A stretch of DNA of 42,196 bases from Gammaproteobacteria bacterium. Lineage in GTDB: Bacteria > Pseudomonadota > Gammaproteobacteria > Steroidobacterales > PWYM01. The notes beneath the pieces were generated by a model, which had not been told where the DNA came from, did not search any database, and saw only the letters and a program-made list of their open reading frames with translations. Below, piece by piece: positions 1,950 through 25,259 of the stretch. Position 1 is the stretch's first letter; each line of letters begins with the position of its first letter. A program made the translations under genes and the position numbers. The stretch covers positions 1 to 42,196 of the forward strand of contig JAFIFN010000016.1 in assembly GCA_020832005.1 (NCBI GenBank), in the 5' to 3' direction.

Positions 1950-1981
1950 GCGTGCCACTGATTGATTGCATGGAGAAGGCT

Positions 1982-2056
1982 ATGGTGTCACCGCAAATTT
2001 CCCCTGAACGCGTTGTTCCGGGCAGATCGGGGAATCTACATGCTCCAGGGCGTTGA
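1982..2056 (+). other. Possible 24-codon leader ORF overlapping the DUF1838-1 start
   Basis: An ATG at 1982 is preceded by GGAGAAGG at 1972-1979, a better ribosome site than any other nearby. The frame encodes 24 residues (MVSPQISPERVVPGR...) and stops at 2054-2056, 17 nt inside the next gene if that gene starts at 2040. This could be a leader peptide that couples translation into DUF1838-1, or the original N-terminus of that gene separated by an old frameshift. I see no similarity to known leader peptides. Confidence 0.3.
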
Positions 2057-4555: not shown

Positions 4556-6877
4556 TCAAAAGCTGTGTACTACGCGGACCCCCCAAGTCCTCCCGTTCGC
4601 GCGCACAAGCGCAGTAGAGGAAACCCCGCAGTTAAGGCACACAGAGTTAGCTGCCGTGTCTGTTTGTCGGGTGGCCCGCGCAAGAGACTCTTCCCCAAAT
4701 GCGTTATCCATCCAGAAGGCGATCTCCGTCGAGTCATTCCGGAGTCCTGCACGGAAATTTACAAGATTGACACTCTCGGATTTGGCGAGATTCAGGCTCT
4801 CTGGGTATCGTCCCGCTTCATAGGAGTAAGAAGCACGCAGGAAGCCGTCGAAACTGCCTACCAATGATGGGAACGTATAGACGCCCGTGCCAAAAAACTG
4901 AACGTCCGAAGTGTTTGCAATCTGATTGCCTCCAACGGCCGCACTGCAGGTCGACACCGGCGTGAGCGGGGAAGAATTGACACCACAGCGGGCCTCGACC
5001 GCAGCATCGACAAAATCACTATTGTATCTCGCATCGATATAGGTGGCCGCGAGGCGCAGGGTAAAGTTATCTGTCACGAACCAGCTGCCGTCGAGCTCTA
5101 TGCCCTTTGACTTGGCGCCGGAGCCGTTAGCGGTAACCGATCCCGCCGCCAGGCTCGCGGGCGCCGTTGACTGTAAGTCCGTCCAGTCAATGTAGTCCAC
5201 GGCTGCGTTGAGGACCCCTCTTCCTCCTAGGACGTCGGTCTTTACCCCGAGCTCATAAGTCCAGTTCTTTTCAGGGTCGAAGGTAAAGAAGGGGTTGCCT
5301 TCGGGCACAGCATTTATCCCGCCCGACTTGATTCCCTGCGCTGCGTATGCGTACACCATCGTGTTGTCGGCCACGAGGTAGTCCACGCCGATACGGCCGC
5401 TCCAGTAATCGAAATCCGTTTCAGTCGATGTCAATGGACGGCTGAGGACGGGCAGGAAGAAGATCTCCGCGCGATCCGTCAGTGCCTGATCCTCCCGGGT
5501 GTAGCGCAGCTCCGCGGTCAAGTTCAGCTGGTTAGTCAAGGGGTAATTCACCGAGCCGTAAAAGGCATCGACTCTCTGCAGAAGCCGCTTTTCGACGTTG
5601 GTAATGCGCGCGAGTGTGTCTGGGTCTGCCAACAGGGGCGTTGTCGTTCCAAGTACATTGCCGCTGGTGCTATCGAAGTACGAGTAGCCGAGCATCCACT
5701 GGAAGGGCGCCTCGGTACTGGATGTGAGGCGGAGATCAACGGTGTCCTGCTTTCCGAGATCGCCAGTCGAATCTGTCAGGAACTGTGCAGTATAGATTCC
5801 AAAGAAAGGACGGTTTACTGCATCTGGGTCGCCGATATTGTCAAAGAAGGAGCTGTATTCTGATTCAGATCGGGAAACATTCAATGTGAGCGTGGCGAGG
5901 TTCAGATCGACATCTAGGTTGCCGTAGGCGAGCCAGTACTTCCCCTTGTTGCCACGCGCACGAGGATCGAGCGATACCTCTCTTGGCGCGGACAGCCTTC
6001 CCGTGAGAATCGTGAACACGCTTCTGGTGCCACCCATGCCGTCGGGCACAAGATACTCCGACCCGCCATCGTTCAGCTCGAAGCTGAGGAGCCGCAGCGC
6101 CGGCGTGTCATCTTCAACCTCGTTTCTTGTGTAGAATACTTTGAGACGCACGCGCTCGTATTCGAGCAGGCCTGAAAATCCCAGGGTCGTGCGGTCATTC
6201 CAACCGCCTATATTGTCGTCGCCGCGGACGTTGTTGATTGTGCCGTCAAATTTACTGGTGCCGCCAAACAGACGCACCGCTGCGTGGTCGCCGATAGGCA
6301 GGTTGACGCTCCCTCGCGCGCCTCTGCGATCATTGCTGCCAAGTTCAAGGTCGATGGTTGCGTCAAACTCGCCCAGCTGCGCGCCATTGCTGACATAGTT
6401 GATCGCGCCGGCGAAAGTGTTGCGCCCGAACAACGCGCTCTGCGGGCCCTTTAGCACCTCAATGCGCGCCAAGTCCATATTGTTGAATTCGATCGAGGAG
6501 CGATTGTTGAGAAAAATGCCGTCAATGAATACGCCGACATTGGACTGGATGCCTCTCTGATCTGTCTGCGCTAGCCCGCGCATCACCACCTCGGAGATAC
6601 CACCGAGCTGCCTGAACTGCATGCCGGGCGTCAACTCAGCGATGCCCTCAAGAGCGAACGCATTGAATTCCCTGAGGGCCTGTTCCGTAAACGCGTTGAT
6701 CGAGATGGGCACTTTCTGCATGTCCTCCTCGCGTTTACGGGCCGTGACAATGATTTCCTCCATGCGGGTTGCCTGCTGCGCCATCGCATATGAGGGGATC
6801 TGGCCAATGGCCAAAGAGAAAGATAGTGCTGCAAGGCCGGTGGTAAGACTGCACCGTGGCTGCGGTAATACGCTCAT
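4556..6877 (-). CDS. TonB-dependent outer-membrane receptor (TonB2)
   Basis: A complete 773-residue receptor. Residues 1-33 form a Sec signal ending in a SYAMA-type site. EEIIVTARKREEDMQKVPISI (about 40-60) is a TonB box followed by the start of the plug; VFIDGIFLNN (116-125) and VLKGPQSALFGRNTFAGAIN (141-160) are plug motifs. The rest is a 22-strand-type barrel ending WGVRVVHSF with terminal phenylalanine. The ATG at 6877 has a GAGGGGG-type ribosome site. It is a paralog of TonB1 over its full visible length. It stands alone on the minus strand with a 581-nt upstream region that contains an operator-like dyad at 6990-7004. This type is common in degraders taking up aromatics, terpenoids or siderophores; the substrate cannot be read from sequence. 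Confidence 0.95.
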   Translation of the reverse strand: MSVLPQPRCSLTTGLAALSFSLAIGQIPSYAMAQQATRMEEIIVTARKREEDMQKVPISINAFTEQALREFNAFALEGIAELTPGMQFRQLGGISEVVMRGLAQTDQRGIQSNVGVFIDGIFLNNRSSIEFNNMDLARIEVLKGPQSALFGRNTFAGAINYVSNGAQLGEFDATIDLELGSNDRRGARGSVNLPIGDHAAVRLFGGTSKFDGTINNVRGDDNIGGWNDRTTLGFSGLLEYERVRLKVFYTRNEVEDDTPALRLLSFELNDGGSEYLVPDGMGGTRSVFTILTGRLSAPREVSLDPRARGNKGKYWLAYGNLDVDLNLATLTLNVSRSESEYSSFFDNIGDPDAVNRPFFGIYTAQFLTDSTGDLGKQDTVDLRLTSSTEAPFQWMLGYSYFDSTSGNVLGTTTPLLADPDTLARITNVEKRLLQRVDAFYGSVNYPLTNQLNLTAELRYTREDQALTDRAEIFFLPVLSRPLTSTETDFDYWSGRIGVDYLVADNTMVYAYAAQGIKSGGINAVPEGNPFFTFDPEKNWTYELGVKTDVLGGRGVLNAAVDYIDWTDLQSTAPASLAAGSVTANGSGAKSKGIELDGSWFVTDNFTLRLAATYIDARYNSDFVDAAVEARCGVNSSPLTPVSTCSAAVGGNQIANTSDVQFFGTGVYTFPSLVGSFDGFLRASYSYEAGRYPESLNLAKSESVNLVNFRAGLRNDSTEIAFWMDNAFGEESLARATRQTDTAANSVCLNCGVSSTALVRANGRTWGVRVVHSF

Positions 6878-6989
6878 TCGAAGTCCCCCTCTCTGTTTAG
6901 TTATTGCCGTGACCTGCGGTACAGTCTAGCGACACCCGGAACGCCCTTTCTTTTGATCCGAATATAGGCGAGAAACAAAAACGAGAATA

Positions 6990-7004
6990 ATGCGTATTAC
7001 GCAT
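6990..7004 (-). promoter_or_regulatory. Operator-like dyad of LysR T-N11-A form
   Basis: ATGCGTA, a single T, then TACGCAT makes a perfect 7+7 inverted repeat. T at 6991 and A at 7003 are separated by 11 nt within the dyad, the classical LysR-family recognition form. It lies 113-127 nt upstream of the TonB2 start. The LysR gene at 13420-14385 is the only regulator in the island and so the obvious candidate, but this is inference. Confidence 0.5.
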
Positions 7005-7266
7005 GCGCCCATGCCTTGGGGTGATAGATGAAGGTTTAAACCGGCGTACATGACTGCTGGTTACCAGCCTTGGCAGCGCACTACCAGGGGAGCAATGTAA
7101 GTTGCGAAGGAGGTGGGCTGTCGCCTGAGTGTCCAAATTGGCACTTTGGGATCAATGCGAAAGCTGTGCTGGCGTCGAGGCCTGGTATGCATTTCTCTGA
7201 TAGAAATAAAGAATCAATCGATTGGCACTTCAACCCCAGCTAATCTAATGTCCGACCGTGTATCTC

Positions 7267-7293
7267 AGCTGGGTTCTGTACAGAAACCCGGCT
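7267..7293 (+). promoter_or_regulatory. Long imperfect inverted repeat upstream of the flavin monooxygenase
   Basis: AGCTGGGTTCTGT faces ACAGAAACCCGGCT around the core CTGTACAG. All positions pair apart from one bulged A and one G-T wobble. It lies 166 nt before the GTG start at 7459. It could be an operator for a dimeric regulator or an RNA hairpin in the leader. Confidence 0.4.
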
Positions 7294-7458
7294 ACCGATT
7301 GCCTGCGAGTGCGCTCGGCGCTGCGCAAACCATCGGAATCTGTAGTCCAAGGTATCTCCCAACGTGATGCGGTTCATTTTCTTGTCCAGTGGCGGCTATC
7401 AAGAGATCGAAATCCGCTCGCATCATCGAAATAAATAAATCGCCCCAAGGACACTAGC

Positions 7459-8688
7459 GTGCAACGACACCGCGAAAGTCAAACTTTGCCCATAGTCATT
7501 GCGGGCGCCGGGCCCGTGGGCTGTTGTGCCGCGCTGTATCTCGCCCAACAGGGCTTCTCGGTAACACTCCTGGAGGCCGAGCCTGAGCTCCCGATGGACC
7601 TTCGGGCATCGACGTTCCATCCTCCGACGCTGGACCTGCTGGACCGGGTTGGCTTGACTGAGAGGCTGATACCGCAGGGGCTTGTGGTCAGGGAATACCA
7701 GTTTCGGGAGCGCTCGACAGGCACGAGTGCGCGTTTCAATCTCTCGCACCTGCGCGGGGAGACAGACTATCCATACCGTTTGCAGTGTGAACAGTACAAG
7801 ATGACACGGGAGGTGGTGAAGCTGCTCGGGAGTCATGCCAACGTTCGCTTCATGAGTCGCACTAAAGTGATTGGCTTCAGGGAGCTCAATGACGGCGTAC
7901 GCGTCCTGACATTTGACGGCAAGCAGGAGACTGTTCTAAACGCCAGTTTTCTGATTGGGTGTGACGGCGCCAACAGCCGCATCCGGCAAGCCTCAGCCAC
8001 ACCGTTTCCGGGTCTGACCTATCCAGAATTATTTCTAGTGGTTTCCACAGATTTTCCATTTGAGGATCATTTTCATGGGCTCAGTTGGGTCAACTACGTC
8101 TCCGACCCGGAGGAGTGGTGTGTCATGCTCAAGACGCCGGAGGTGTGGCGGGTACAGTTCCCGACCCCCGTCTCGGCGACCCCCGAACACCTGCTCTCGG
8201 ATGAGTATATCCAAGGTCGGTTGAAGCGGCTGTGTCCGCACGGCTCGCCTTACTCCATCCGTCATCGAACCCTTTATCGGGTCCATCAGCGAGTCGCAGA
8301 CTCCTACCGCCCGGGACGTCGCGTAGTTCTGGCGGGCGACTCGGCACATGTGAACAATCCGCTGGGCGGCATGGGCATGAACGGTGGGATCCACGATGCG
8401 TTCAATTTGTGCGAGAAGCTGGTGGACGTGCGCAACGATCAGATAGAACTTGATGTGGCGCTGGATCTCTATGACGCACAGCGACGCCAGATTTGCATCG
8501 ACGTCATACAACGCCAAACCATCCGAAACAAGCAGCTGTTGGAGGGGAGTAACAAGGCTGTGCAGCTGGAGCGCCAACGCGTATTGATGGATGCCGCATC
8601 TGATCCTGCGAGACAAAAGGCCCATCTGATGGAATCTTCAATGATCAACTGTCTACGCCATTCCTATGCCATCGGACTACCTTCCTAG
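7459..8688 (+). CDS. FAD-dependent monooxygenase (phenol/resorcinol hydroxylase type, FAD_binding_3)
   Basis: A 409-residue group A flavoprotein monooxygenase, which would hydroxylate an aromatic or related ring using NAD(P)H and O2 in the cytoplasm. GAGPVG (residues 16-21) is the FAD dinucleotide motif, CDGANSRIR (about 168-176) the DG motif, and GDSAHVNNPLGGMGMN (from residue 293) the second FAD motif. It is shorter than PheA/TfdB hydroxylases because it lacks their C-terminal thioredoxin-like domain. The start is a GTG with AAGGA 7 nt upstream; no in-frame ATG precedes the FAD motif. The NmrA-type gene follows 15 nt later with its own ribosome site, so the two are probably co-transcribed. 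Substrate unknown. Confidence 0.9.
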   Translation: MQRHRESQTLPIVIAGAGPVGCCAALYLAQQGFSVTLLEAEPELPMDLRASTFHPPTLDLLDRVGLTERLIPQGLVVREYQFRERSTGTSARFNLSHLRGETDYPYRLQCEQYKMTREVVKLLGSHANVRFMSRTKVIGFRELNDGVRVLTFDGKQETVLNASFLIGCDGANSRIRQASATPFPGLTYPELFLVVSTDFPFEDHFHGLSWVNYVSDPEEWCVMLKTPEVWRVQFPTPVSATPEHLLSDEYIQGRLKRLCPHGSPYSIRHRTLYRVHQRVADSYRPGRRVVLAGDSAHVNNPLGGMGMNGGIHDAFNLCEKLVDVRNDQIELDVALDLYDAQRRQICIDVIQRQTIRNKQLLEGSNKAVQLERQRVLMDAASDPARQKAHLMESSMINCLRHSYAIGLPS

Positions 8689-8703
8689 ACACCGGAGAAC
8701 TTG

Positions 8704-9594
8704 ATGTCACAGTCTACCCTGTTGCTGACCGGCGCCAACGGCCGAACCGGACGAGCCGTTTTGAAAAGTCTGTCTTCGTGCGGTATCGCCGTACGTGCGT
8801 TTGTTCGCCAATCCTCCCAGGCAGGCGACTTAAAAGGGCTGGGAGCACGCGAAATCAGCATTGGCGACTTTCTGGATGCCGAGTCCGTAAAAGCCGCGGT
8901 AGAAGGCGTATCAAAGGTCATGCACATCGGCCCACCGATGCATCCGGACGAAGTGGAAATCACCCGTAGCTTCATAGAGGCAGCGAAGCGGAATCAAGTT
9001 GAACACTTCGTCTATTACTCAGTGATGCACCCGCTGCGCAGGGAGGTGCGCCACCATCGCCTGAAACTGGAGGCAGAAGAAGCCTTGATCGAGTCCGGGC
9101 TGCCCTTCACGATTGTTCAGCCAGCCCGCTACATGCAGCACCTGGAGCCGATCTGGCGGAGCGTAGTCGAAGAGGGCGTTCATGCGATGCCCTTTTCTAT
9201 TGAACAGAAGTTCAATGTGGTGGATCTTGCCGACTTGGCGGACGCCTGCGCAGTCGTGGCTTCGTCAGACAGGCATCTTTACGCGACCTATGAGCTCGCG
9301 GGTCCGCAGGCATTAAGCCAAGAGGACATGGCGCGACTCATCGCTCAAGTCCTGGGGAAGCCTGTCACGGCCAAGCAGGTATCCTGGGAGGCGATGGCCG
9401 AGAAGGCGTCCCGCGCCGGGGCCACACAAGACCGTATCTCCCAGATGTTGGTGATGAACAGGCACTACGATAGTCATGGATTTCGCGGCAACTCGAACGT
9501 GCTCGAGTATCTTCTGGGACGTCCCGCGACGCGCTTCAATGCATATGTTTCAGCTCTGCACGCCAGAGATCTCGAAAGCGCGAGCAGCTCATAA
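8704..9594 (+). CDS. NmrA-family NAD(P)-binding protein
   Basis: A 296-residue Rossmann-fold protein of the atypical short-chain dehydrogenase (NmrA/HSCARG) group. TGANGRTGRAV at the N-terminus (GxxGxxG) binds the dinucleotide; VEHFVYYSVMHP and the following LEAEEALIESGLPFTIVQPARYMQ are characteristic of the family. It lacks a clean YxxxK catalytic pair, so it may be an NAD(P)H-quinone reductase, a reductase acting on the product of the upstream monooxygenase, or a redox sensor. The ATG at 8704 is preceded by GGAG at 8694-8697; a TTG one codon earlier is also possible. It follows the monooxygenase by 15 nt, and a weak hairpin follows its stop. Confidence 0.88.
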   Translation: MSQSTLLLTGANGRTGRAVLKSLSSCGIAVRAFVRQSSQAGDLKGLGAREISIGDFLDAESVKAAVEGVSKVMHIGPPMHPDEVEITRSFIEAAKRNQVEHFVYYSVMHPLRREVRHHRLKLEAEEALIESGLPFTIVQPARYMQHLEPIWRSVVEEGVHAMPFSIEQKFNVVDLADLADACAVVASSDRHLYATYELAGPQALSQEDMARLIAQVLGKPVTAKQVSWEAMAEKASRAGATQDRISQMLVMNRHYDSHGFRGNSNVLEYLLGRPATRFNAYVSALHARDLESASSS

Positions 9595-9616
9595 GGCCAT
9601 TGGGCGCCCGTTCCAT

Positions 9617-9634
9617 GCCTGGTATGGGCCCAGG
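9617..9634. terminator. Short hairpin between convergent genes
   Basis: GCCTGG (9617-9622) pairs with CCAGGC (9629-9634) around a 6-nt loop, followed by GTTTACT. It lies between the ends of the NmrA gene (+) and the minus-strand monooxygenase, where a two-way terminator is expected. The stem is short and the U-tract weak. Confidence 0.35.
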
Positions 9635-9718
9635 CGTTTACTCGCGCCCACTGAGTGAACCGGTGCGTCCGTAATCGGTCAGGTTGCGAATACCTTAGGT
9701 CGTTCCGACGGAAGCCCG

Positions 9719-10924
9719 TCAGATCGGGACGTTCGCTGGATCGTAGTGGAAGAGACCGAGGGCGTCCTCATTGCGTGCCGGAACCCGCCGCAAGCCCTCC
9801 GGGTCCATCTGCGTCAACCGCTCGCCGCCGAGCAGCGCCTCTCGATGGATCATCGTCACGCGCTCCAGGCGCGCGGCCTGATAGCGGCGCAGTGCCGCAG
9901 GAGCATCGTTCGGGGCCGCCGCGAAACAGCGACCGATCACCACAGCATCTTCAATCGCCATCGCCGCACCCTGACCGAACCAGGGCATCATGGGATGCGC
10001 GGCGTCCCCAAGCACGGCAACGCGCTCGGTGACCCAACGCTGAAGAGGTTCGCGTGCGAAGAGCCCCCACTTGTGGCACGAGTGTGCCGCACCGATGAGC
10101 GCGCGCACCTCCATGTGCCAGTCGGCGAAATGCGCATCCAGTTCCGCTATCTCGGCGGGCTGCGACCAGCTTTCCGCCTCCCAGTTTCCAGTGCGTACGA
10201 AGGCGACGAAGTTCTGAAGCTTGCCCCCCCGTACGGGATAGCGCACGAAAATTCGGCCGGGTCCCACGAAGACGCGCGACCCTGACTCGAGCGGCAGGTC
10301 CCCAAGGCTTGTGGTAGGCACAAGCCCGCGCCAGGCGACGAACCCGGAGAAGTCGGGGACGGCGGCGCCGAACACCTGCTCACGGACGGTGGACTTCAGG
10401 CCGTCTGCGCCGATAAGCGCAACACATCTCTCGCGCTCGCCGCCGGCGAAGTGGAGCAGCACCTCGCCGGAGCTTTCTTCGATGCCCGTGCAGGTGCGCC
10501 CAAGGCAAAGAGTGTCGGGATCGGCGGCCTGCACAGCCTGCACCAGGATTGCATGCAGGTCCGCGCGATGCAGCTGCAGATAGGGTGCTCCATACTGCTC
10601 GCGCACACCAGTGCGATCAATCTCGATAAGTATCTCGCCGCTGTGCCCCTCGCAAGTGAGCTGCTGCAGGGGCTGGTCCGCTTGCGCTTCCACGGCCTGC
10701 GCGACGCCCACATGACGCAGGCCCTTGAAGGCATTGGGCGTAACGGAAATACCAGCTCCGACATCGCCGAGGAACGGTGCCTGTTCGAATATGCGGACTT
10801 GCAGTCCCGCGCGCTGCAGCGCCAGTGCCGCTGTCAGGCCGCCTATGCCCGCGCCTAGGACTGCGATGTAGCTTTCCGGTAGTGCACGATCGCTCAGAGC
10901 GGTTTCTCGCACGCGGTGAACCAC
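9719..10924 (-). CDS. FAD-dependent monooxygenase (salicylate / 3-hydroxybenzoate hydroxylase type)
   Basis: A 401-residue flavoprotein of the NahG/UbiH-like group, distinct from the one at 7459. LGAGIGGLTAAL at about residues 23-34 is the FAD-binding motif, GADGLKSTVR the DG motif, and GDAAHPMMPWFGQGAAMAIEDA from residue 306 the second FAD motif with the PxxxQG signature of salicylate-type hydroxylases. It would hydroxylate, or decarboxylate and hydroxylate, an aromatic acid. The open frame starts at a GTG at 10924 inside the end of MT1 (31-nt overlap); I see no good ribosome site, so translation may depend on the upstream gene and the exact start is uncertain. It is the last gene of the LysR-MT2-small A-MT1 unit. 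Confidence 0.9.
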   Translation of the reverse strand: MVHRVRETALSDRALPESYIAVLGAGIGGLTAALALQRAGLQVRIFEQAPFLGDVGAGISVTPNAFKGLRHVGVAQAVEAQADQPLQQLTCEGHSGEILIEIDRTGVREQYGAPYLQLHRADLHAILVQAVQAADPDTLCLGRTCTGIEESSGEVLLHFAGGERERCVALIGADGLKSTVREQVFGAAVPDFSGFVAWRGLVPTTSLGDLPLESGSRVFVGPGRIFVRYPVRGGKLQNFVAFVRTGNWEAESWSQPAEIAELDAHFADWHMEVRALIGAAHSCHKWGLFAREPLQRWVTERVAVLGDAAHPMMPWFGQGAAMAIEDAVVIGRCFAAAPNDAPAALRRYQAARLERVTMIHREALLGGERLTQMDPEGLRRVPARNEDALGLFHYDPANVPI

Positions 10925-11970: not shown

Positions 11971-12261
11971 CTAGAGCTTCCCAAGCGCGTCGTACAGACG
12001 TTTTACCAGGCGGTCCCGTTCGGCGAGCCTCGCGGCTCGCTGCTCGGGCGTGTCGCGATGATGCTCGATCATCTCGGCGGTCACGATACCGCGCTCTTCC
12101 AGCACCGTCTCGAGCACGCGCCGTCGATCGCGTTCGATCCATAGCTCGGCTCCGAGTTCGAGCACCACGTCGACCAGGCGGTCGAGGATGGGATTCGGCA
12201 GGAAGCTCGGCTCAGGCTCCGAGGCACTCGGCATAATTTTTCCGTCGGAGGTTGCGCTCAT
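11971..12261 (-). CDS. Small protein A of an unrecognised family
   Basis: A 96-residue, highly charged, probably all-helical protein with no signal peptide. Its core LGAELWIERDRRRVLETVL is shared with the small protein at 19914-20243 (LGRELWVLTDRMRMLEALL). The two align without gaps over 68 residues, with about 19 identities concentrated in GxELWxxxDRxRxLExxL. Its ATG overlaps the stop of MT2 as ATGA, so the two are translationally coupled, and MT1 follows 12 nt after its stop. I do not recognise the family. The tight coupling to methyltransferases suggests a small partner or chaperone-like subunit (inference). Confidence 0.8.
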   Translation of the reverse strand: MSATSDGKIMPSASEPEPSFLPNPILDRLVDVVLELGAELWIERDRRRVLETVLEERGIVTAEMIEHHRDTPEQRAARLAERDRLVKRLYDALGKL

Positions 12262-13322
12262 GCGACCGTTTCAGGCTTGCGCCCGATCACCACGTAGGGG
12301 TAACTGAGCGGCGGCTCACCCCAGGCACGAACGTCTTGGAAGCCGGCAGCACGCGCGACGGCTGCGAGGTCGAGACTCGCCGACTCCCGCCACCATGGCT
12401 CCCCGCCGTGCCGCGCCCCATGGTCGGCCCACCAGCGCCTGACTGCGTCGAGATCCGCGTAGCGGCTGACGTCGCTCATGAGTACGTCGCCACCGGGCCG
12501 CAGGACGCGGAAGGCCTCTTGGAACACCGCCTCTATTGCCTGCGCTGGAAGCTCATGCAGCAGGATGTACGAAGTGACGAGGTCGAAGCTCGCGTCTGCG
12601 AAGCCGGTGTCGTGGGCGCAGCGCTGAAACAGGCGCCACGGCAAGCCGCGGGCGTTGGCGGTGCGCAGCGCGTGCTCGAGCATGCGCAGCGAGAGATCGA
12701 CGCCGAAAATCTCGGCCTGAGGAAAGGTCTCAGCGAGCGCAAGCGTGTACTGGCCGCTTGATGTGCCAACCTCGAGGATTCTTGAATAGTCGCGCTTCGG
12801 AGCCAAGGCGGCGACATATCGCCGTTGCTTGAAGATACCCCCAGGATACAAGCGGTCGACAAGTGCCTTGTGGATGAGTTGGCCATGCACGTAACCCATG
12901 TAAGGATGGCCATCCCAGCCCCCGTGCATGCGGTGGATCCATACATCCTGCCAATAGGCGGGTGCTCGCCAGTCCTCAGGCGCTGGCTCAAGCGTGGCTG
13001 GGCCCGTGTCCAAGGCGTGCAGCCTCGGTGTGACGCGAGGAGCGATTTCCTCAAATGCTTCGATGGCGATGCGGCCGTGCTCGTTCAGGTACCACTCCAT
13101 GCCGAACTCGCGCGTCGTATACAGACTCGTTGGCTCAAGCCGTGCCCGCAACTCCCGGTCGATCGCATCCAAATCTTCCGGGAGAGCCTCGTCGTCCACC
13201 TGCGCGCGCAGCGATGCGTCGATATCCCGCGTCGCTTTGCCCAACCAGCGGCCCACGGAGGCCACGAATTCGAGCGATGCGCGCCCGCGCTGTGCCAGGG
13301 GCTCGTCCAGTCTTGCCATCAT
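12258..13322 (-). CDS. Class I SAM-dependent methyltransferase with long N-terminal domain (MT2)
   Basis: A 354-residue protein with the same layout as MT1: about 180 residues of unassigned N-terminal sequence, then a Rossmann methyltransferase. ILEVGTSSGQ (182-191) is motif I, EIFGVDLSLRMLEHA motif II, SFDLVTSYILLHELP motif IV-like, RVLRPGGDVLMSDV motif VI. The N-terminal part contains a tryptophan/histidine-rich patch (DVWIHRMHGGWDGHPYMGY, about 126-144) that may line a substrate pocket. The start is one of two adjacent ATG codons at 13322/13319; neither has a strong ribosome site. It lies 97 nt after the LysR gene and overlaps small protein A by 4 nt. MT1 and MT2 look like an old duplication with strong divergence. 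Confidence 0.87.
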   Translation of the reverse strand: MMARLDEPLAQRGRASLEFVASVGRWLGKATRDIDASLRAQVDDEALPEDLDAIDRELRARLEPTSLYTTREFGMEWYLNEHGRIAIEAFEEIAPRVTPRLHALDTGPATLEPAPEDWRAPAYWQDVWIHRMHGGWDGHPYMGYVHGQLIHKALVDRLYPGGIFKQRRYVAALAPKRDYSRILEVGTSSGQYTLALAETFPQAEIFGVDLSLRMLEHALRTANARGLPWRLFQRCAHDTGFADASFDLVTSYILLHELPAQAIEAVFQEAFRVLRPGGDVLMSDVSRYADLDAVRRWWADHGARHGGEPWWRESASLDLAAVARAAGFQDVRAWGEPPLSYPYVVIGRKPETVA

Positions 13323-14385: not shown

Positions 14386-14669
14386 CGTAACCCTCCGGCC
14401 GCCGAAGCAAAGACCCGGCAGCGCGACCCGTGGCTTAAATTGCGTGCCCTTCGAGCATACACGCGTTGCTTAGGGATTTCCCAGTCCGGCTTTCTCGCCT
14501 ATACCGCGTTGCTATGGTTTCGTGGTTCAAGCTCGCCGCTTATCCGGATCCGGGGCCTGTCGCGCAACGTGGCTGCCATGCCGCCGGTGCATGGCTGGAG
14601 CATCCGATTTGATTGGCGGGGCGCGCGGCAGGCAGTAGAGTCGGGAGGTCAGTGACGACGGAGACGGCT
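14386..14669. promoter_or_regulatory. Divergent control region between LysR and DUF1838-3
   Basis: CGCGTTGCT occurs twice as a direct repeat, at 14462-14470 and 14505-14513, start-to-start spacing 43 nt (about four helical turns), with similar flanks (TAGG and ATGG). The palindrome CCGGATCCGG lies at 14544-14553. No convincing ORF is present. The spacing fits two regulator-bound sites on one DNA face, a usual feature of LysR-controlled divergent promoters. Confidence 0.45.
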
Positions 14670-15602
14670 ATGCACGACGAACACGCTTCAATTGACCGGA
14701 GGATGGTGCTCGCGGGGCTGGGTGGCCTCCTGGCGGGCGGGACGCTCGGTTCGCCCTCCCTGCTCGCGAGCGATCAGAGCGGCTCGCTACCGGGCTATCT
14801 GCCTGAGGAGGCGTGGAAGGGTGAGCCTGCCGTGATGTCGGGCAGAGCCCCGTTTGATCTCTCCGATCCGATGCAGAACTGGTTCGCGCTGATGAAGAGC
14901 ACGAACAACCTGGTCGGCGCGCGCACTTACGTGCCGATGTTCATGCGCGTGTTCTTCGGGCCTCAGGGCAAGGCCCCGTTCCCCCTGTATACCTCCTTCG
15001 GCATGTGGACGTGGCAGCTCCAGCGCCCAGAACCTGGGCAATTCAAGGACTTGCAGCGCGACGACGTCATCCAGCGCGCGCTCTACACCGGGGTCATCTG
15101 CGATCCCTGGACATTCGAGCCCGTAGACCGTCTCTACATCCCATACACCGACACTACGGTCGAAACGCGCGATTCGTTGTTTGGCGAATCATGGCTACTA
15201 CGCTCCGGTGGCCGCGGCTACGAGGGCATCGACCGTCCAGGCTTCCGTTCGGTTGACGAGGAGCGCCAGCGGCGCGGCACCCCGTACGTGCGTTTCGGCG
15301 AAGATGTGGCGTTTAATATCGCCGGTTTGCTGCAGACAGAGGGCCCCGCGCAGCCCCGGATGGACGGTTCCTTCTGGACGGTTCGCGAAGATGAGCTCAT
15401 GAGCCCCGAGCACGATCTCGTTGAGGCTACCTACTCTTTCGCCGGCGTCTCGCGTGCGCGAGAGCGGCCTTGGCTCGGCCTCGATCCCGACGATGACTCG
15501 CAGCTGCTGATGAATACCCAGGGCCGCAAGGTGCACTCGGTGGAGCGCATTCCGCGGGTGATCCAAGAGACTTTGCTGAAGAAATACCCCGACCGAATCT
15601 AA
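14670..15602 (+). CDS. DUF1838 family protein 3 with Tat-type signal
   Basis: A 310-residue DUF1838 protein. DRRMVLAGLGGLLAGG (about 9-24) is a Tat-type signal. FDLSDPMQNWFALMKSTNNLVGARTYVPMFMR (62-93) is the family's N-terminal core. GPAQPR lies at 225-230 with a tryptophan shortly after (here A replaces the H seen in other copies), and the protein ends KKYPDRI. The ATG at 14670 has GGAG at 14660-14663; the frame is open further upstream but the Tat signal and ribosome site fix the start. It heads a plus-strand unit with two hydrolases, DUF1838-4 and the propeller protein. It would act in the periplasm; its chemistry is not known. It is most like the copy at 24258-25259. Confidence 0.9.
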   Translation: MHDEHASIDRRMVLAGLGGLLAGGTLGSPSLLASDQSGSLPGYLPEEAWKGEPAVMSGRAPFDLSDPMQNWFALMKSTNNLVGARTYVPMFMRVFFGPQGKAPFPLYTSFGMWTWQLQRPEPGQFKDLQRDDVIQRALYTGVICDPWTFEPVDRLYIPYTDTTVETRDSLFGESWLLRSGGRGYEGIDRPGFRSVDEERQRRGTPYVRFGEDVAFNIAGLLQTEGPAQPRMDGSFWTVREDELMSPEHDLVEATYSFAGVSRARERPWLGLDPDDDSQLLMNTQGRKVHSVERIPRVIQETLLKKYPDRI

Positions 15603-16629: not shown

Positions 16630-17570
16630 AGCTGCCGACTTTCATGCGCGCTTTGCGAATGAGCTGGCTTGCGCTCCTCACGCTGGCGGGTGCAGCCGCG
16701 CACGCCGTCGAGCCCGTGACTTCAACTTTCCGTGGAGGTGGCGAAGTACCGCTCGTGCTGACCAGCTGGGGCAACCAGGACGGCCCCGGAGTGCTGCTGG
16801 TGCATGGATTTCTCGGCAGCGCACTTCTGTGGAGGCAGCAGCACGACAGCACAATGGCGCAAACCCACGCCATGGCTGCTTTCGACCTGCGCGGCCACGG
16901 GGCCTCCGGCAAACCTTGGAACCGCGAGGCCTACGTCGATACGCGCGTGTGGGCGCAAGACGTCGATGCGGCAATTCGCGAGAGTGGGCTTGAGCGTCCC
17001 GTGATCGTAGCGTGGTCGTACGGCGGCTACTTCCTGATGAACTACCTGCGACACTATGGCACCTCGGCAGTGAGCGGCATCGTGCTTGTCGGCTCCGACG
17101 GCGGCCTCGTGCGCCGTGAGCCAACGGCGGCCGCTGTCGACGAGGAGACAGCGCAGCAACGACGGGCGGCCTCCTCATCCCCGGACCTGCAGGTCATCAC
17201 CCGCTGGAACGCCGCCTACGTTGCCGATGTGCTGGCACGAGATGGTCCGCTGCCGCCGGCCGAGATGGAACTGCTGCGCCTCACGCTCGGACTTGTGCCC
17301 CATTATGTGCGACCGTTCCTGCGCGAGCACCGCACCGACAACACCGACCTGCTCGAACAGATAGACGTGCCAGTGTTGTTCATCCATGGAGAGAAAGACC
17401 TTTCGGTCCCGCTGGCTACGGTGCGCGAGGCTGCCGGGAGATTACAAAACGCACGACTGGGTGTTTACGAGGGCGTGTACGGACACCTGCCTTTCTGGTA
17501 CTGGCCCAAGCGCTTCGAGGAGGATCTCGAGCGCTTCATTGCTGAGGTTCATCATGACCGGGAGCCCTGA
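16626..17570 (+). CDS. Exported alpha/beta hydrolase with intact catalytic triad
   Basis: A 314-residue hydrolase with a Sec signal (LALLTLAGAAAHA, cleavage near residue 27). All triad elements are present: nucleophile elbow AWSYGG (Ser131), acid in HGEKDLSVP (Asp258), and histidine in GVYGHLPF (His287), plus the oxyanion HGF at 60-62. It starts in a 4-nt ATGA overlap with the preceding hydrolase and overlaps the start of DUF1838-4 by 17 nt, so this whole stretch is translationally coupled. It would cleave an ester, lactone or C-C bond in the periplasm. The substrate cannot be read from sequence. The intact/degenerate pairing with its neighbour is notable. Confidence 0.9.
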   Translation: MKLPTFMRALRMSWLALLTLAGAAAHAVEPVTSTFRGGGEVPLVLTSWGNQDGPGVLLVHGFLGSALLWRQQHDSTMAQTHAMAAFDLRGHGASGKPWNREAYVDTRVWAQDVDAAIRESGLERPVIVAWSYGGYFLMNYLRHYGTSAVSGIVLVGSDGGLVRREPTAAAVDEETAQQRRAASSSPDLQVITRWNAAYVADVLARDGPLPPAEMELLRLTLGLVPHYVRPFLREHRTDNTDLLEQIDVPVLFIHGEKDLSVPLATVREAAGRLQNARLGVYEGVYGHLPFWYWPKRFEEDLERFIAEVHHDREP

Positions 17571-18453
17571 CCCGATACAGACACCGCCAGTTAATCGCCG
17601 CGAGCTGCTCGCAGCGGCAGGGGGGCTGGGCCTTGTGGCCTTCGCAGGACGCCTGGCTACGGCTGGCGATCGAGCAGGCGAATACGTGCCGCCTGGGCTC
17701 GAGCGGGATCTTCCGCCGGAAGCAGGGCGTTTGCCGCGTGCGAGCTTCTTGACCAGTGGGCCCTTTGATCTGTCTGACCCTCGCGAGTATGCGCTCGCGC
17801 GGACGAAGGCGATGATCAACCTCGTTGGCCGCACCGCGTGGCTGGCGGTACTTACACGCCATACCCTCTGTCCGCCCGGCCGGCCCGCCGTGCCGCTCGC
17901 CAATGAGCTAGAGCTGTTCACGATGTGGCACGAGCGCACTCCCGAAGGCGATGTGCAGCGCAATATTTTCACGCGCGTGCCGCTCGATCCACGCACCAAC
18001 CGTCCGACCTATGAGTTGGAGAACCCCCTTACAGGGAACATCTTGCGCCTGCCGGATACCCTCTTCGCCCTGACCTTGCCCGTGCGGCTCGGCGGCGACC
18101 TGCACATTCGTGACACCACCGAGGCGGCCCAACCTTGGTTTCACTTTGGAGCCTACCTCGACCTCGTCTCGCTCGCGGTGCGCGGCGGCGACGGCCCCCA
18201 CCAACCCTCCCTTGATTCTTCTGTCTGGCGTGTGCGCCATGACGAGCTGATGGATCCTGAGCGCCCTCTGGTGGATGCACATTACTCGCAGTCTGCGCTA
18301 GTGCGTGCGAGCCTGGTCCAGTGGACTGGCTACGAACCGGATGACCCTACCCAAATGCTGATCTCCAAGTCCGGCCTGAAGGTTAACGCGCGCGAGGCTC
18401 TGCCCGAAGCCGTGCACTCATGGATATTGGATAAATACCCGGAGCGGGCGTGA
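17554..18453 (+). CDS. DUF1838 family protein 4 with Tat-type signal
   Basis: A 299-residue DUF1838 protein starting MTGSPDPIQTPPVNRRELLAAAGGLGL, a Tat-type signal with RR at 15-16. FDLSDPREYALARTKAMINLVGRTAWLAVLTR (71-102) is the N-terminal core; GPHQPS lies at 214-219 followed by a tryptophan; the end is DKYPERA. The start at 17554 was preferred to an upstream frame opening because it places GAGG at 17544-17547 and gives a clean Tat signal. It overlaps the preceding hydrolase by 17 nt. The core NNLVG of other copies is INLVG here. Confidence 0.9.
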   Translation: MTGSPDPIQTPPVNRRELLAAAGGLGLVAFAGRLATAGDRAGEYVPPGLERDLPPEAGRLPRASFLTSGPFDLSDPREYALARTKAMINLVGRTAWLAVLTRHTLCPPGRPAVPLANELELFTMWHERTPEGDVQRNIFTRVPLDPRTNRPTYELENPLTGNILRLPDTLFALTLPVRLGGDLHIRDTTEAAQPWFHFGAYLDLVSLAVRGGDGPHQPSLDSSVWRVRHDELMDPERPLVDAHYSQSALVRASLVQWTGYEPDDPTQMLISKSGLKVNAREALPEAVHSWILDKYPERA

Positions 18454-18604: not shown

Positions 18605-19747
18605 ATGCAGCGAAGGCGCTTTTTGACCACAGCCGGTATGCTCGCCGCTTACACCCTTTCGGGCCGTCATGTCGCGGCTGCTGAGCCGCAAGCAGCCGGT
18701 CCGGCAGGGCTGCTTCTGGGCGAGGGACCGCAAGGTCACGGCGACGAACTCACTAACGGCGGCGCGATCGTTCGCTGGAACGCCGCCCGACAGGCGTGGT
18801 TCATGTGGTATTACGGCCGCGATCGAAGTTTCCCGGCTGGTTACGCGCCTGCACTCGGCACCGGCAGCGTCCTGCTCGCGACCTCGCCGAACGGGTTCGC
18901 ATGGGAGCGACACGCAGGGCCGCTGCCGGGCGGGGCCATCATGGTGCCTGGCAGCGCGCCGGATGCCTTCGATTCCGCGCACATCGGCACCAGCGACGTG
19001 CTGTTACATGAGGGTCTGTGGTACCTGTTCTACTTCGGCGGGGATCACTCCACGGTCGAGGACCCACCCAGGGGCTACGAGGCGCCCGGCTACCTGATGC
19101 GGCCTGGACTCGCGGTGAGTCGCGATGGCCTCAACTGGGAGCGACGCCCCGGTGCGGGCAGTGGAGGCGCGCTCCTTGATCCAGGATCGGACGAAGTATA
19201 TGCAGCATTTCCGAGCGCACTTCACGATGGCCAGCAATTTATTCTGCAGTACTCTACGCTGCGTAAGGATGTCTTCTACTGGCGTACGAGGCATGCCGTT
19301 TCCGAGGATGGCGTGAAATGGGAGCCTCTCGGCGAACTTAAGTGGGAGCAGGAGCCGGCAGGCTTCGAAACGGGCGGCAGCAATACCCGATGCGTAATCG
19401 CCAACCCGCGGGGCGACGAGCCACGTTGGCTGATGTTTTACACAGCCCTGGATGCGCGGTTCCCACTGTATACCCGAACCATCGGTGTGGCGGGCTCTGA
19501 CGACGGCCTTCGCTGGCGGCGGCTGTTAGATGAACCGATCTTCTCGATAGGCTCTCGTGACAGCTGGGACGGCGGCGGCGTGTCCTTTCCGCAGGTGGTG
19601 GCGCGCGACGGTCAGCTGTGGATGTATTACTACGGCTTCGCTGATCGTGGGAACACTGTGGGGCCCCAGCGCGGCATCGGACTGGCAGTAAGCCCGGACG
19701 GCGATCTTCGTGGTTTCCGGCGCTACCGTCCTACTCTCCTCTTATGA
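18605..19747 (+). CDS. Tat-exported five-bladed beta-propeller protein, glycosidase-like (GH43/GH32 type)
   Basis: A 380-residue protein. MQRRRFLTTAGMLAAYTL is a Tat-type signal. The rest is built of repeating blades: an aromatic strand (AWFMWYYGRD, LWYLFYFGGDHS, WLMFYTALD, LWMYYYGFAD) followed by a turn of the form ATSPNGFAWER, AVSRDGLNWER, AVSEDGVKWEP, AGSDDGLRWRR and AVSPDG. This is the pattern of five-bladed glycoside-hydrolase propellers. Several acidic residues could be catalytic, but I cannot assign a triad, so a sugar-binding or non-glycosidase role is possible. GGAGGA lies 8 nt before the ATG, right after the hairpin at 18552-18589. It is exported to the same compartment as the DUF1838 proteins. 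Confidence 0.82.
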   Translation: MQRRRFLTTAGMLAAYTLSGRHVAAAEPQAAGPAGLLLGEGPQGHGDELTNGGAIVRWNAARQAWFMWYYGRDRSFPAGYAPALGTGSVLLATSPNGFAWERHAGPLPGGAIMVPGSAPDAFDSAHIGTSDVLLHEGLWYLFYFGGDHSTVEDPPRGYEAPGYLMRPGLAVSRDGLNWERRPGAGSGGALLDPGSDEVYAAFPSALHDGQQFILQYSTLRKDVFYWRTRHAVSEDGVKWEPLGELKWEQEPAGFETGGSNTRCVIANPRGDEPRWLMFYTALDARFPLYTRTIGVAGSDDGLRWRRLLDEPIFSIGSRDSWDGGGVSFPQVVARDGQLWMYYYGFADRGNTVGPQRGIGLAVSPDGDLRGFRRYRPTLLL

Positions 19748-19782
19748 GAGAACCGCTCGTGAGACAAGCTAAAGGAGTCATA

Positions 19783-19917
19783 ATGTCCCCTGATCGCAAT
19801 CCGCTACGACCCGTCACCGATGAAGCCCGGTCTCAATGTGCCCCCGATGCTGCGCTGAGCCTGCATCGGATGTTTGCTCCGAAGTGCGTCGCTAAGCTGC
19901 TCCCGGTGGGCTGGTGA
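19783..19917 (+). pseudogene. N-terminal stump of a phytanoyl-CoA dioxygenase-family gene (44 codons)
   Basis: A 44-codon frame with a strong ribosome site (AAAGGAG at 19771-19777, 5 nt before the ATG). The sequence NPLRPVTDEARSQCAPDAAL and the following LHRMFAPKCVAKLLPV align without gaps with residues 8-44 of the intact PhyH protein at 23021-23965 (SPIRPIDRQDVEDYKRDGVV then CLRNVLSKDWIDLLEPV). PxRP, the aspartate, the leucine before the R/H and the final PV coincide. The catalytic half is gone, so this is most likely a remnant left by a deletion, with its translation start preserved. Its stop overlaps the next GTG start (GTGA). It could still be translated and couple small protein B. A functional short peptide cannot be excluded. 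Confidence 0.6.
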
Positions 19918-20243
19918 GCGCGCCAACCGAGGGGCGGCCCGATCCGCAGAACCCGCCGCGCGGACCGGCGCCCAAGCGTACGGTGCTGGCGCCCGGGCAG
20001 CTCGACGACGTGGCGTCGGCCATCATGCTCCTCGGCCGGGAGTTGTGGGTGCTCACCGATCGCATGCGCATGCTCGAAGCCCTTCTCGATCAGCACGACA
20101 TACCTGTGCGCGAACAGTTGGAGCGCTCGGTCCCCGATGGAGACTTGGCGGTAGAGCTCAGTCGCGACGCAGAGGCCTTCGCAGCACGTCTGCTGAATAC
20201 CCTGGCAGGACGCGGCGCGTCGGAAACGGAGACATCGTCCTAG
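19914..20243 (+). CDS. Small protein B, paralog of small protein A
   Basis: A 109-residue protein with a GTG start that overlaps the stop of the PhyH stump by 4 nt. After a proline-rich N-terminus (PDPQNPPRGPAPKR), LDDVASAIMLLGRELWVLTDRMRMLEALLDQHDI aligns without gaps with small protein A (LDRLVDVVLELGAELWIERDRRRVLETVLEERGI). The shared core is GxELWxxxDRxRxLExxL; the remainder is charged and probably helical. Coupling to the stump suggests it once followed a full PhyH gene, just as copy A follows a methyltransferase. Its stop overlaps the convergent transporter stop in the bases CTAG (20240-20243). Function unknown. Confidence 0.75.
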   Translation: MSAPTEGRPDPQNPPRGPAPKRTVLAPGQLDDVASAIMLLGRELWVLTDRMRMLEALLDQHDIPVREQLERSVPDGDLAVELSRDAEAFAARLLNTLAGRGASETETSS

Positions 20244-21649
20244 TCTGATAGGCGTGGATGCGCTTTGTGTAGAGCAGAGTCCTGATTATGCACGTCCGGT
20301 TCGGCAATTGTCTTGGTCCGCGCAAGCATTGACTCGTCCAAGCGGTACCTTGACAGGGTCAGCAGGCTGAGAGCTGCCGCCGCTGCAGGTATAAACGCCA
20401 TTCCGACCAGAATACCGAACAGCACCTGTGGTTCCTGGACGGCATCGGGTGGCAGGTTGCGGTTGAAGCCCACGAACGCGAGAACCCAGCCCACGATCAG
20501 CGGCCCAAAAGCGCCGGAAAACTTCTCCACGAAACTGTAGCAAGCGGCATAAATGCCTTCCCGACGCATACCGGTACGTCTGAAATCGAAATCGATGGTG
20601 TCAGTCAGCATGGACATGGCAAGCAGGATATTTCCGCCCATGCAGATGCCCACCAGGATGCCACGAGCATAAAAGAGAGTAATGTGGTCTGTTGGTTGGG
20701 CCAATGCCCAACTAAGCGAATAGATGATAAGCACACTTGTCGAGAAGGCGTAGGCGGCGCGTTTCCCAAAACGCTTCGACAGCCGTACGAACACGGGCAT
20801 CATCAATATTGTGACGATTGTATTTATCAGGCCGAATACAGCGAGATGTGCAAGCGGTATCTGCAGATAAGCCGTGATGTAAAACAACGTTGTGGCCGCA
20901 GCGCTCGCAATACCGATCAGCTGAAGGGCCTTGGTGGAGATCAGCCACAGGAACGGCTTGTTGTCGAACAGAAGACCTATCTGAGCTTTCACGCTGTGTG
21001 CTGTGCGCGTCGTAAACGTGAATCGTGCCTCGCGGGTGCCGAAATAGCAGCCCACCATTGAAGCGAAAATGATTGCCGAGAACAGCAGTGCGACGATCCG
21101 ATAGGCTTCGCGCCCCTCACCGAAAACCTGGAGAAGAATCGGTGCAATGGCGCCTGCAATACTTGAGCCGATAGAGACGAACACAACTCGATAGGAGTGC
21201 AGCGAGGAGCGCTCGTGATAACCGTCAGTCATCTCCGCCGGCATCGCCATATAAGGCACGTTGAAGATGGTGTAGCCGAGGGTATAGAGCAGCAGGGCGG
21301 CAAGTGCGTAGGCGGCGGAGGCCGCCTGGGTTGAAAACTCCGGGATCGTGAACAGCATGCCGAACGCCAGTGCCGAGATAAATGCTCCTACTACCAGGAA
21401 CGGCCGCCGCCGCCCGCGGCGAAAGGTGGAGCGGTCACTGATGACGCCCATGATCGGATCTGTGGCGACATCAAAGAGCTTCGACGCGAAGACGATAGTG
21501 CCAGCCAGGCCCGGATCGAGTCCGACTACATTTATCAGGTAGAACAGGATCAGAATCGAGATGCTGTTCATCAGCACGGCGACGCCCAGCGCACCTGAGC
21601 CCCACATCAATTTGAGGCGTGTCGGCAGCTTTTCCAGGCGTTCTATCAT
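20240..21649 (-). CDS. GPH-family cation symporter (MFS_2)
   Basis: A 469-residue, 12-helix inner-membrane carrier of the glycoside-pentoside-hexuronide:cation family. Diagnostic features are the N-terminal FDVATDPIMGVISDRSTFRRGRRRPFLVVG stretch (D-x-x-x-D-P-x-x-G and RxGRRRP) and YTIFNVPYMAMPAEMTDGYHERSSLHSYR, both typical of the MelB/XylP group. It would import a glycoside, sugar acid or related organic compound with Na+ or H+. It is the last gene of the DUF1838-5, PhyH, serine hydrolase unit, 94 nt after the hydrolase. The ribosome site is weak (AAGG 9 nt upstream). Its stop shares 4 nt with the convergent small protein B. It is visibly less GC-rich than the housekeeping genes to the right. 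Confidence 0.92.
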   Translation of the reverse strand: MIERLEKLPTRLKLMWGSGALGVAVLMNSISILILFYLINVVGLDPGLAGTIVFASKLFDVATDPIMGVISDRSTFRRGRRRPFLVVGAFISALAFGMLFTIPEFSTQAASAAYALAALLLYTLGYTIFNVPYMAMPAEMTDGYHERSSLHSYRVVFVSIGSSIAGAIAPILLQVFGEGREAYRIVALLFSAIIFASMVGCYFGTREARFTFTTRTAHSVKAQIGLLFDNKPFLWLISTKALQLIGIASAAATTLFYITAYLQIPLAHLAVFGLINTIVTILMMPVFVRLSKRFGKRAAYAFSTSVLIIYSLSWALAQPTDHITLFYARGILVGICMGGNILLAMSMLTDTIDFDFRRTGMRREGIYAACYSFVEKFSGAFGPLIVGWVLAFVGFNRNLPPDAVQEPQVLFGILVGMAFIPAAAAALSLLTLSRYRLDESMLARTKTIAEPDVHNQDSALHKAHPRLSD

Positions 21650-23020: not shown

Positions 23021-23965
23021 TTAACTGCCTCCCTCCTGGCGTTGCTTGTTACGCAACTCCTCGAATACTTTGTACTCGTTTACGTCTCCCATCGCTTGCT
23101 TGGACCATTCGGTTGCAAAGCTCCGTGGGAAACGCTCATCGCTGTCGCGTTCGCCGGTCGCAGACCAGAGCAGGGGAAAATGAGAACCTGCGGGCCTCTC
23201 GTTCTCGATCATCTCGTCGAAACTTACCCCCGCGAGATTTACGCAGTCGGGCCGTGGGCTCCAGCGTATATCGTCCCCGAAGACGCGCACGGAAAGCGCG
23301 ATTCGCCAATCGTCTGTCGGATTTCCGCCAGACCAATGGAGCACCCAAGGGTGAACAATCAAAAGATCGCCCGGGTCCATATCCCAAGCCAGAAACTTGA
23401 GGCCTGGCTCTCCTCTTCGCTTTTCGATATCAGGATGCGCGACCCTGTCCTCGGGCTTTCGCATCTTGCGGGCGTTCGGCGAAAATAGCCAGTAGGGTAC
23501 GTCCTCGATCTGACTTCCGGCGAGGACCTCAAGACAATTCGCCTTGACGATCGGTGTGAGTGGAATCCAGATCGACGGCACCATCTTGCCCTTCACGGGC
23601 CAACCCATGCGGTCACAGTGCCATTGCGTGTACTCCGTCGACTGGGGAGACTTCACAAAGAATTCATCGAAGAAAAACCGAATCTCGGACGACTCCATGA
23701 CCCGGCCTGCAGCCTCAGCGATGGCCGATTCAAAAATGAATCTTCGGAACTCCGAAACCCTTCGCGCCATATACCGACCAGGCATGGTAGGCAACAGGCC
23801 CACGTCCTTCTTATCGATGGCAATCTCGCGCGCGACGGGCTCCAGTAGATCGATCCAGTCCTTGCTCAAAACGTTTCGTAGACACACTACGCCATCACGC
23901 TTGTAATCTTCTACATCCTGCCGGTCGATCGGCCTGATGGGACTTCGATTGAGGTGCATGCTCAC
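23021..23965 (-). CDS. Phytanoyl-CoA dioxygenase (PhyH) family Fe(II)/2-oxoglutarate oxygenase
   Basis: A 314-residue cytoplasmic enzyme. The iron triad is visible: WHCD supplies His116 and Asp118, and LHWSGGN supplies His210; Arg221 in DDWRIALSVRVFGDD fits the 2-oxoglutarate-binding position. The N-terminus RPIDRQDVEDYKRDGVVCLRN is typical of the family. The start is a GTG at 23965 with AAGGA 5 nt upstream; an ATG two codons later is the alternative. It would hydroxylate an unactivated carbon on a pathway intermediate. It follows DUF1838-5 by 292 nt, a gap that contains an inverted repeat, so it may have its own promoter. A stump of a second family member lies at 19783-19917. Confidence 0.92.
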   Translation of the reverse strand: MSMHLNRSPIRPIDRQDVEDYKRDGVVCLRNVLSKDWIDLLEPVAREIAIDKKDVGLLPTMPGRYMARRVSEFRRFIFESAIAEAAGRVMESSEIRFFFDEFFVKSPQSTEYTQWHCDRMGWPVKGKMVPSIWIPLTPIVKANCLEVLAGSQIEDVPYWLFSPNARKMRKPEDRVAHPDIEKRRGEPGLKFLAWDMDPGDLLIVHPWVLHWSGGNPTDDWRIALSVRVFGDDIRWSPRPDCVNLAGVSFDEMIENERPAGSHFPLLWSATGERDSDERFPRSFATEWSKQAMGDVNEYKVFEELRNKQRQEGGS

Positions 23966-24257: not shown

Positions 24258-25259
24258 TCAGAGCCGATCCGGATACTTCTCCGCAAGTACACGCTTATGG
24301 AAATCCGGGAGATCCTCCGGGCTGTGCACCTTCTTCCCCGTGGCGAGACTGCACAGGCTGTCTGTGTCCGCGAACGTATAACCCGCCCAAGGTTTCTCAA
24401 AGGCCTTGTTGATTCCGAGGAAGTTGTAGTTGGTCTGTATCAGACTCACATCGGGGTCCATGACATCACGTGAAGCGCAGCGCCAAGTGTTCTCCGTGAA
24501 TCGGGGCTGGTGCCTTCCAGGCTCACGGTAAACGCCCCCAAGGAAAAGGACCAGGTCATCACCCCATTTCTTGATCAGGCTGGGCCTTGGCTTGTTCGGG
24601 TCATCATCAGCAAACTGGAGTTCCTCGATAAAACGCGATCCGCCCAAGGGGAAAGACAGGAAGTTCTCGACGAAGATGTAGTCTTCCAGTTCCATCAGCT
24701 TCCCGTTGAAAGGGTTTTTAAGCGTCTTGACCGGCTCCATGGTGTTTGGATCCAGGTGGATCGCGGTATACATGGATCGCATGAGTGCCGTGCCCTCCGG
24801 AAGGCCAGGAAACTCCTCGGGATCGGGCACCTGCAGCTGCCAAGTGAACATCGATGCTATGCCCAAGAGCAACCCGCCCGGCAAATTCTCGCGAGCCACT
24901 AGCTGCCGCGTAAGCATGGGGATGTACGTGCGCCGGCCGACGAGGTTGTTGGTCATCTTGAGCTTTGCGAGGTGATTCTCGTGCGGATCCTCCAAATCGA
25001 AGTTTCCCGTCTTTGCCGCCTTCCACGGGATTCCATCCATTTCGTTGTTGACAAATTCGCGCTGACGCTCGTAAGCAGTGAATACTTCACTGTCGCCTTC
25101 TCTGCTTTTGTCTTCATCGGCATTTGCGGAGCCGCCTTTGGCGCCGACCACCGCAAGTGCGCCAAGTGAGCCCCCTATGGCGGTGAGCATCATGCGCCGC
25201 GTGGGGTCGAGTGCGTCTCCGCTCGGTGGTGGGGGCTGCAGCTCTTTCGATTTGCTCAT
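24258..25259 (-). CDS. DUF1838 family protein 5 with Tat-type signal
   Basis: A 333-residue DUF1838 protein, the fullest copy in the window. A 20-residue polar N-terminus is followed by TRRMMLTAIGGSLGALAVVGA, a Tat-type signal. FDLEDPHENHLAKLKMTNNLVGRRTYIPMLTR is the N-terminal core (87-118), GRHQPR lies at 248-253 followed by NTWR, and the protein ends AEKYPDRL. GAGGAG lies 6 nt before the ATG. It heads the minus-strand unit with PhyH, the lipoprotein hydrolase and the GPH carrier, and marks the right end of the accessory island. DUF1838 proteins have no established activity that I know of; the conserved HQP-type motif, tryptophans and arginines look like an active or binding site. Confidence 0.92.
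   Translation of the reverse strand: MSKSKELQPPPPSGDALDPTRRMMLTAIGGSLGALAVVGAKGGSANADEDKSREGDSEVFTAYERQREFVNNEMDGIPWKAAKTGNFDLEDPHENHLAKLKMTNNLVGRRTYIPMLTRQLVARENLPGGLLLGIASMFTWQLQVPDPEEFPGLPEGTALMRSMYTAIHLDPNTMEPVKTLKNPFNGKLMELEDYIFVENFLSFPLGGSRFIEELQFADDDPNKPRPSLIKKWGDDLVLFLGGVYREPGRHQPRFTENTWRCASRDVMDPDVSLIQTNYNFLGINKAFEKPWAGYTFADTDSLCSLATGKKVHSPEDLPDFHKRVLAEKYPDRL

Follow-up and report, generated by a model that had tools for sequence, protein, structure and literature searches.

Oxygenases of the PhyH family (Pfam PF05721) are phytanoyl-CoA dioxygenase-like enzymes that depend on Fe(II) and 2-oxoglutarate. In the window analysed here, a stretch of 42,196 nucleotides from a gammaproteobacterial draft genome of 278 contigs, we examined a 44-codon open reading frame (hereafter the stump) that is invisible to annotation. 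The 42 N-terminal residues of the stump align gap-free, start to start, with the intact PhyH members of this bacterial order. It differs from them in that about 14% of the length is left, with only approximately 20 initial residues of the domain region and no catalytic motif, and in that near-invariant residues have been lost.

A second comparison is offered by the remnants that deletions leave in bacterial operons. As in these, the stump is truncated, conserved residues appear to have been lost by point mutation and the downstream gene, encoding the small protein B2, is intact; the stump differs in that its start signal, its frame and the 4-nt overlap with B2 are all retained. The geometry of the locus also recalls gene pairs coupled by termination and reinitiation. 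Strict coupling was seen for 13 of 14 overlapping gene pairs in reporter tests (PMC6728339), and no more than the final 15 nt of the upstream gene were needed for reinitiation in E. coli (PMC10666635). The stump and B2 likewise overlap by 4 nt (GTGA) and carry the stronger ribosome site on the upstream frame; however, the upstream frame is in this case a dead fragment and not a working gene, and coupling is putative.

Frame, signals and junctions of the stump

The features of the locus are collected in Table 1. The stump translates as MSPDRNPLRPVTDEARSQCAPDAALSLHRMFAPKCVAKLLPVGW, followed by its stop codon.

Table 1. Features of the stump locus and comparison genes, in positions of the window
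Feature	Position	Strand	Remarks
Stump, truncated and decayed PhyH-family N-terminus	19783..19917	+	44 codons, stop within coordinates
Shine-Dalgarno sequence AAAGGAG of the stump	19771..19777	+	5 nt ahead of the ATG; from the sequence
GTGA junction, stump TGA stop / B2 GTG start	19914..19917	+	4-nt overlap; from the sequence and ORF list
In-frame upstream extension of the stump	19744..19782	+	13 codons; ATG at 19744
Propeller-like protein, upstream neighbour	18605..19747	+	weak similarity to beta-1,2-mannobiose phosphorylase model
Small protein B2, intact gene behind the stump	19914..20243	+	109 aa; no Pfam/NCBIfam family at cut-off
Other small B gene of the window	about 11971-12261	-	follows MTase2; resembles PhyH-partnered small B genes
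Intact PhyH-family oxygenase, comparison gene	23021..23965	-	Pfam PhyH, E=5.5e-19

The preliminary description had assigned the stump a near-ideal ribosome site and a stop overlapping the next GTG, and both statements hold: the AAAGGAG motif pairs with the anti-Shine-Dalgarno sequence at -8.2 kcal/mol, which places it in approximately the top 5% of random window positions, and the shared 4 nt lead directly into the B2 gene. In addition, an upstream ATG (19744-19747) overlaps the stop of the propeller gene by 4 nt (ATGA) and lengthens the stump frame to 57 codons. The 57-codon frame thereby bridges the propeller gene and B2 with a 4-nt overlap at each end.

The region is GC-rich, and the length of the stump carries no meaning because 118 open reading frames of at least 40 aa occur in 13 kb. 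By itself this length is unremarkable, and what lies above chance is the similarity to PhyH. The GC3 of the stump (0.62) is at the low end among the genes of the window.

PhyH ancestry and decay of the stump

A Pfam scan of the stump returned no match even at E=10, and the curated Pfam score was not reached, as is expected since only about 20 residues of the PhyH domain region remain. The stump is too short for general models, and we therefore built N-terminal HMMs from the first ~55 residues of intact PhyH proteins, using 7 copies from the genome that contains the window and further relatives from 196 genomes of the order. The stump scored 16.9 bits against an HMM of 22 sequences and 16.1 bits against one of 15 close sequences. 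Shuffling the stump 20,000 times never gave such a score, the maximum being 9.5 bits. The alignment spans residues 1 to 41 and places start codon on start codon. In a panel of N-terminal HMMs, PhyH families gave 14.3 and 16.2 bits and a more distant PhyH subfamily 7.7 bits, as against -2.4 to 2.1 bits for 15 other gene families of the window, with one lacking a score.

Pairwise comparisons, all of them gap-free, were in line with these scores. The best single match was the PhyH of a genus-mate (G004), with 14 of 41 residues identical, followed by a second-subfamily PhyH of G131 (13/36) and a PhyH paralogue on C195 (12/42); for each of the three, none of 5,000 shuffles scored as high. Moreover, in an unguided search with the stump over 97 genomes, several of the weak matches were PhyH N-termini in register (G000 C195, G004 C67, G039 C2, G085 C27 and G067 C9). 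The gap-free alignment with the window's intact PhyH, on which the preliminary description had relied, is real (10/42 identical, with 3 of 5,000 shuffles scoring as high), with the correction that the comparison gene lies on the minus strand.

The same description had read the stump as a PhyH N-terminus and had named a profile search devoid of PhyH similarity as the outcome that would speak against this; the HMM scores, their specificity within the family panel and the pairwise matches bear the reading out. On the evidence of these alignments, the stump belongs to the PhyH family by descent, its N-terminus being homologous to those of intact members, and it is not a recent copy of the window's intact PhyH. 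The 42 aligned residues are too few for placing it among the PhyH subfamilies.

Intact PhyH proteins comprise about 300-315 codons, compared with 44 in the stump. The PhyH body, with its HxD...H iron site and its 2-oxoglutarate site, is absent, the frame ending at residue 44. No remnant of this body was found when every frame of 19600-20400 was searched, in agreement with the earlier claim that the catalytic part is missing. Besides being cut, the stump has diverged at positions that are otherwise conserved. It retains 4 of 12 near-invariant columns, defined as those identical in at least 14 of 15 intact PhyH proteins, whereas each intact PhyH, scored against the others, retains 11-12 of 12-13. 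The lost residues are I, Y, R, G, V, V, R and W, among them most of the Y-x-R-D-G-V-V core. At all eight positions, the stump codon is a single nucleotide away from a codon for the consensus residue (random mean 3.06, p = 1e-4). Such a pattern is expected from point mutation in what was once a PhyH gene and speaks against an assembly error; by this measure, the stump has decayed by point mutation in addition to its truncation. With both the truncation and the loss of residues common to all intact homologues, the stump qualifies from its sequence as a pseudogene, or gene remnant. With relatives for comparison, a 44-codon frame that annotation does not see can thus be traced to a specific lost enzyme, and it documents an enzyme loss in a cluster where one intact PhyH gene remains.

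Small protein B2 and its family

About 17 copies of the small B family, to which B2 belongs, are present in the source genome. No Pfam or NCBIfam model covers the family at cut-off, and it is apparently undescribed, judging from these model searches. Of the 99 distinct members in the fetched loci, 72 directly follow a SAM-dependent methyltransferase gene and 8 directly follow a PhyH gene; the other 19, B2 among them, have something else in front. A 4-nt overlap is the commonest junction with the upstream methyltransferase gene (49 of the 72 pairs) and occurs in only 1 of the 8 PhyH-partnered cases. These last cases come from eight relatives, seven genomes of family f12 plus G005, in which the small B gene follows an intact PhyH gene on the same strand. 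Small B looks like a dedicated small partner protein, and the family may be a more useful lead than the stump itself.

In a tree of the family, B2 joins (support 98/88) the small B genes located behind MTase2 in five relatives, a placement that is uncertain given 80 columns and the long branch of B2. Where inspected, these MTase2-partnered relatives have a 4-nt overlap like that of B2. The 8 PhyH-partnered small B genes sit in another clade.

We also compared the two small B loci of the window, 11971-13322 (-) and 19783-20243 (+), with L180, L182, L187 and L188. Relative to the f12 genomes, the partners of the two small B genes are exchanged: MTase2 stands ahead of the gene at about 11971-12261, and B2 has the PhyH remnant in front of it. 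This arrangement suggests recombination between paralogous junctions.

Origin of the remnant and its possible present role

Taken together, we consider it highly probable that the stump is what is left of a PhyH oxygenase gene. We infer that this gene once stood behind the propeller gene, and that a deletion or rearrangement took everything past approximately codon 42, joining the PhyH start to the B2 start. The leftover codons would then have drifted, losing residues common to all intact relatives, while the start signal, the open frame and the 4-nt overlap of the stop with the B2 start survived. A lost PhyH gene ahead of a small B gene is plausible because eight relatives have an intact PhyH gene in that position. 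Two observations count against this account, namely that no relative with the original order was seen and that the clade of B2 is methyltransferase-partnered. With regard to the former, the preliminary description had proposed looking in related genomes for an intact PhyH gene between the propeller gene and small protein B, and a search over 38 propeller loci and 396 genomes of the order, with neighbourhoods inspected, returned none. The closest arrangements, both in other genomes of the order, were a PhyH gene (6607-8649) directly ahead of the propeller gene (8671-9816) in L262 and a methyltransferase-small B-propeller run in L263 (7570-10104).

With regard to the latter, a variant of the remnant account, to which we give somewhat less than an even chance, holds that B2 once followed a methyltransferase gene, and that the deletion or rearrangement reached from about PhyH codon 42 right to the end of that gene, so that the stop and the 4-nt overlap would be the methyltransferase's own. 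It draws on the grouping of B2 with MTase2-following genes and on their overlap, on the separate clade and rare 4-nt overlap of the PhyH-partnered small B genes, and on the exchanged MTase2 and PhyH partners in the window. Against it stand the uncertain placement of B2 and the reach of the PhyH-like alignment, which extends to within two codons of the stop and leaves almost no methyltransferase sequence. The preliminary description had proposed an internal deletion. The part of it that stands is that the PhyH start was kept and the body is gone; a clean excision within a PhyH-B2 pair is not borne out, because of the methyltransferase-partnered clade of B2, and a fusion is about as likely. An earlier pathway with two PhyH-type hydroxylations, also raised there, is only a possibility.

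The usual order of small B genes also brings up a methyltransferase N-terminus that resembles PhyH by chance, and methyltransferase N-termini likewise carry a 'P...DE...Q' pattern. However, the stump scored -1.0 bits against a methyltransferase N-terminal HMM, with 4,165 of 20,000 shuffles doing as well, and the panel gave -1.6 bits for MTase1 and 2.1 bits for MTase2. For the sequence of the stump this origin is ruled out on HMM scores, and we regard it as extremely unlikely; only the final one to three codons ahead of the stop might still be of methyltransferase origin. The collapse of an intact gene during assembly might be considered for a draft genome, but such an artefact would leave an undecayed N-terminus, and the loss of 8 of 12 near-invariant residues makes it very unlikely. 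The open frame and good ribosome site would also suit a short functional peptide whose amino-acid sequence is under selection. No free-standing, conserved homologue of the 44 residues, which the preliminary description had put forward as evidence against a remnant, was found in 97 genomes of the order, residues conserved in all PhyH proteins were lost one mutation at a time, and GC3 is low compared with the window's genes. We judge this reading improbable, a function at the level of sequence being unlikely because the residues that were most conserved are gone.

Returning to the remnant of a PhyH gene, its most likely role, if it has any, would be that of a translated leader, from which terminating ribosomes go on to start B2. 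We infer its translation and its coupling to B2 from the good ribosome site, the open frame and the GTGA junction, together with the reporter-test precedents; the short stop/start overlap expected of a coupled leader is present. B2 has a possible ribosome site of its own which, although weaker (pairing energy -6.2 compared to -8.2 for the stump), counts against B2 being fed from the stump. It is possible, if rather doubtful, that the dead enzyme fragment is kept as a translational relay, its start site and 44 codons staying open only to deliver ribosomes to B2 through the 4-nt overlap. In that event, B2, a small partner protein, would now work without its enzyme or with another one.

As a separate observation on the surrounding cluster, several related DUF1838-like proteins are encoded in it (14613-15602, 17386-18453, 1962-2834 (+) and 24258-25259 (-)), where TonB receptors, FAD monooxygenases, methyltransferases and MFS transporters are encoded too. 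In the f12 genomes, a recurring block unites LysR, NmrA, TonB, DUF1838-like, hydrolase and propeller genes.
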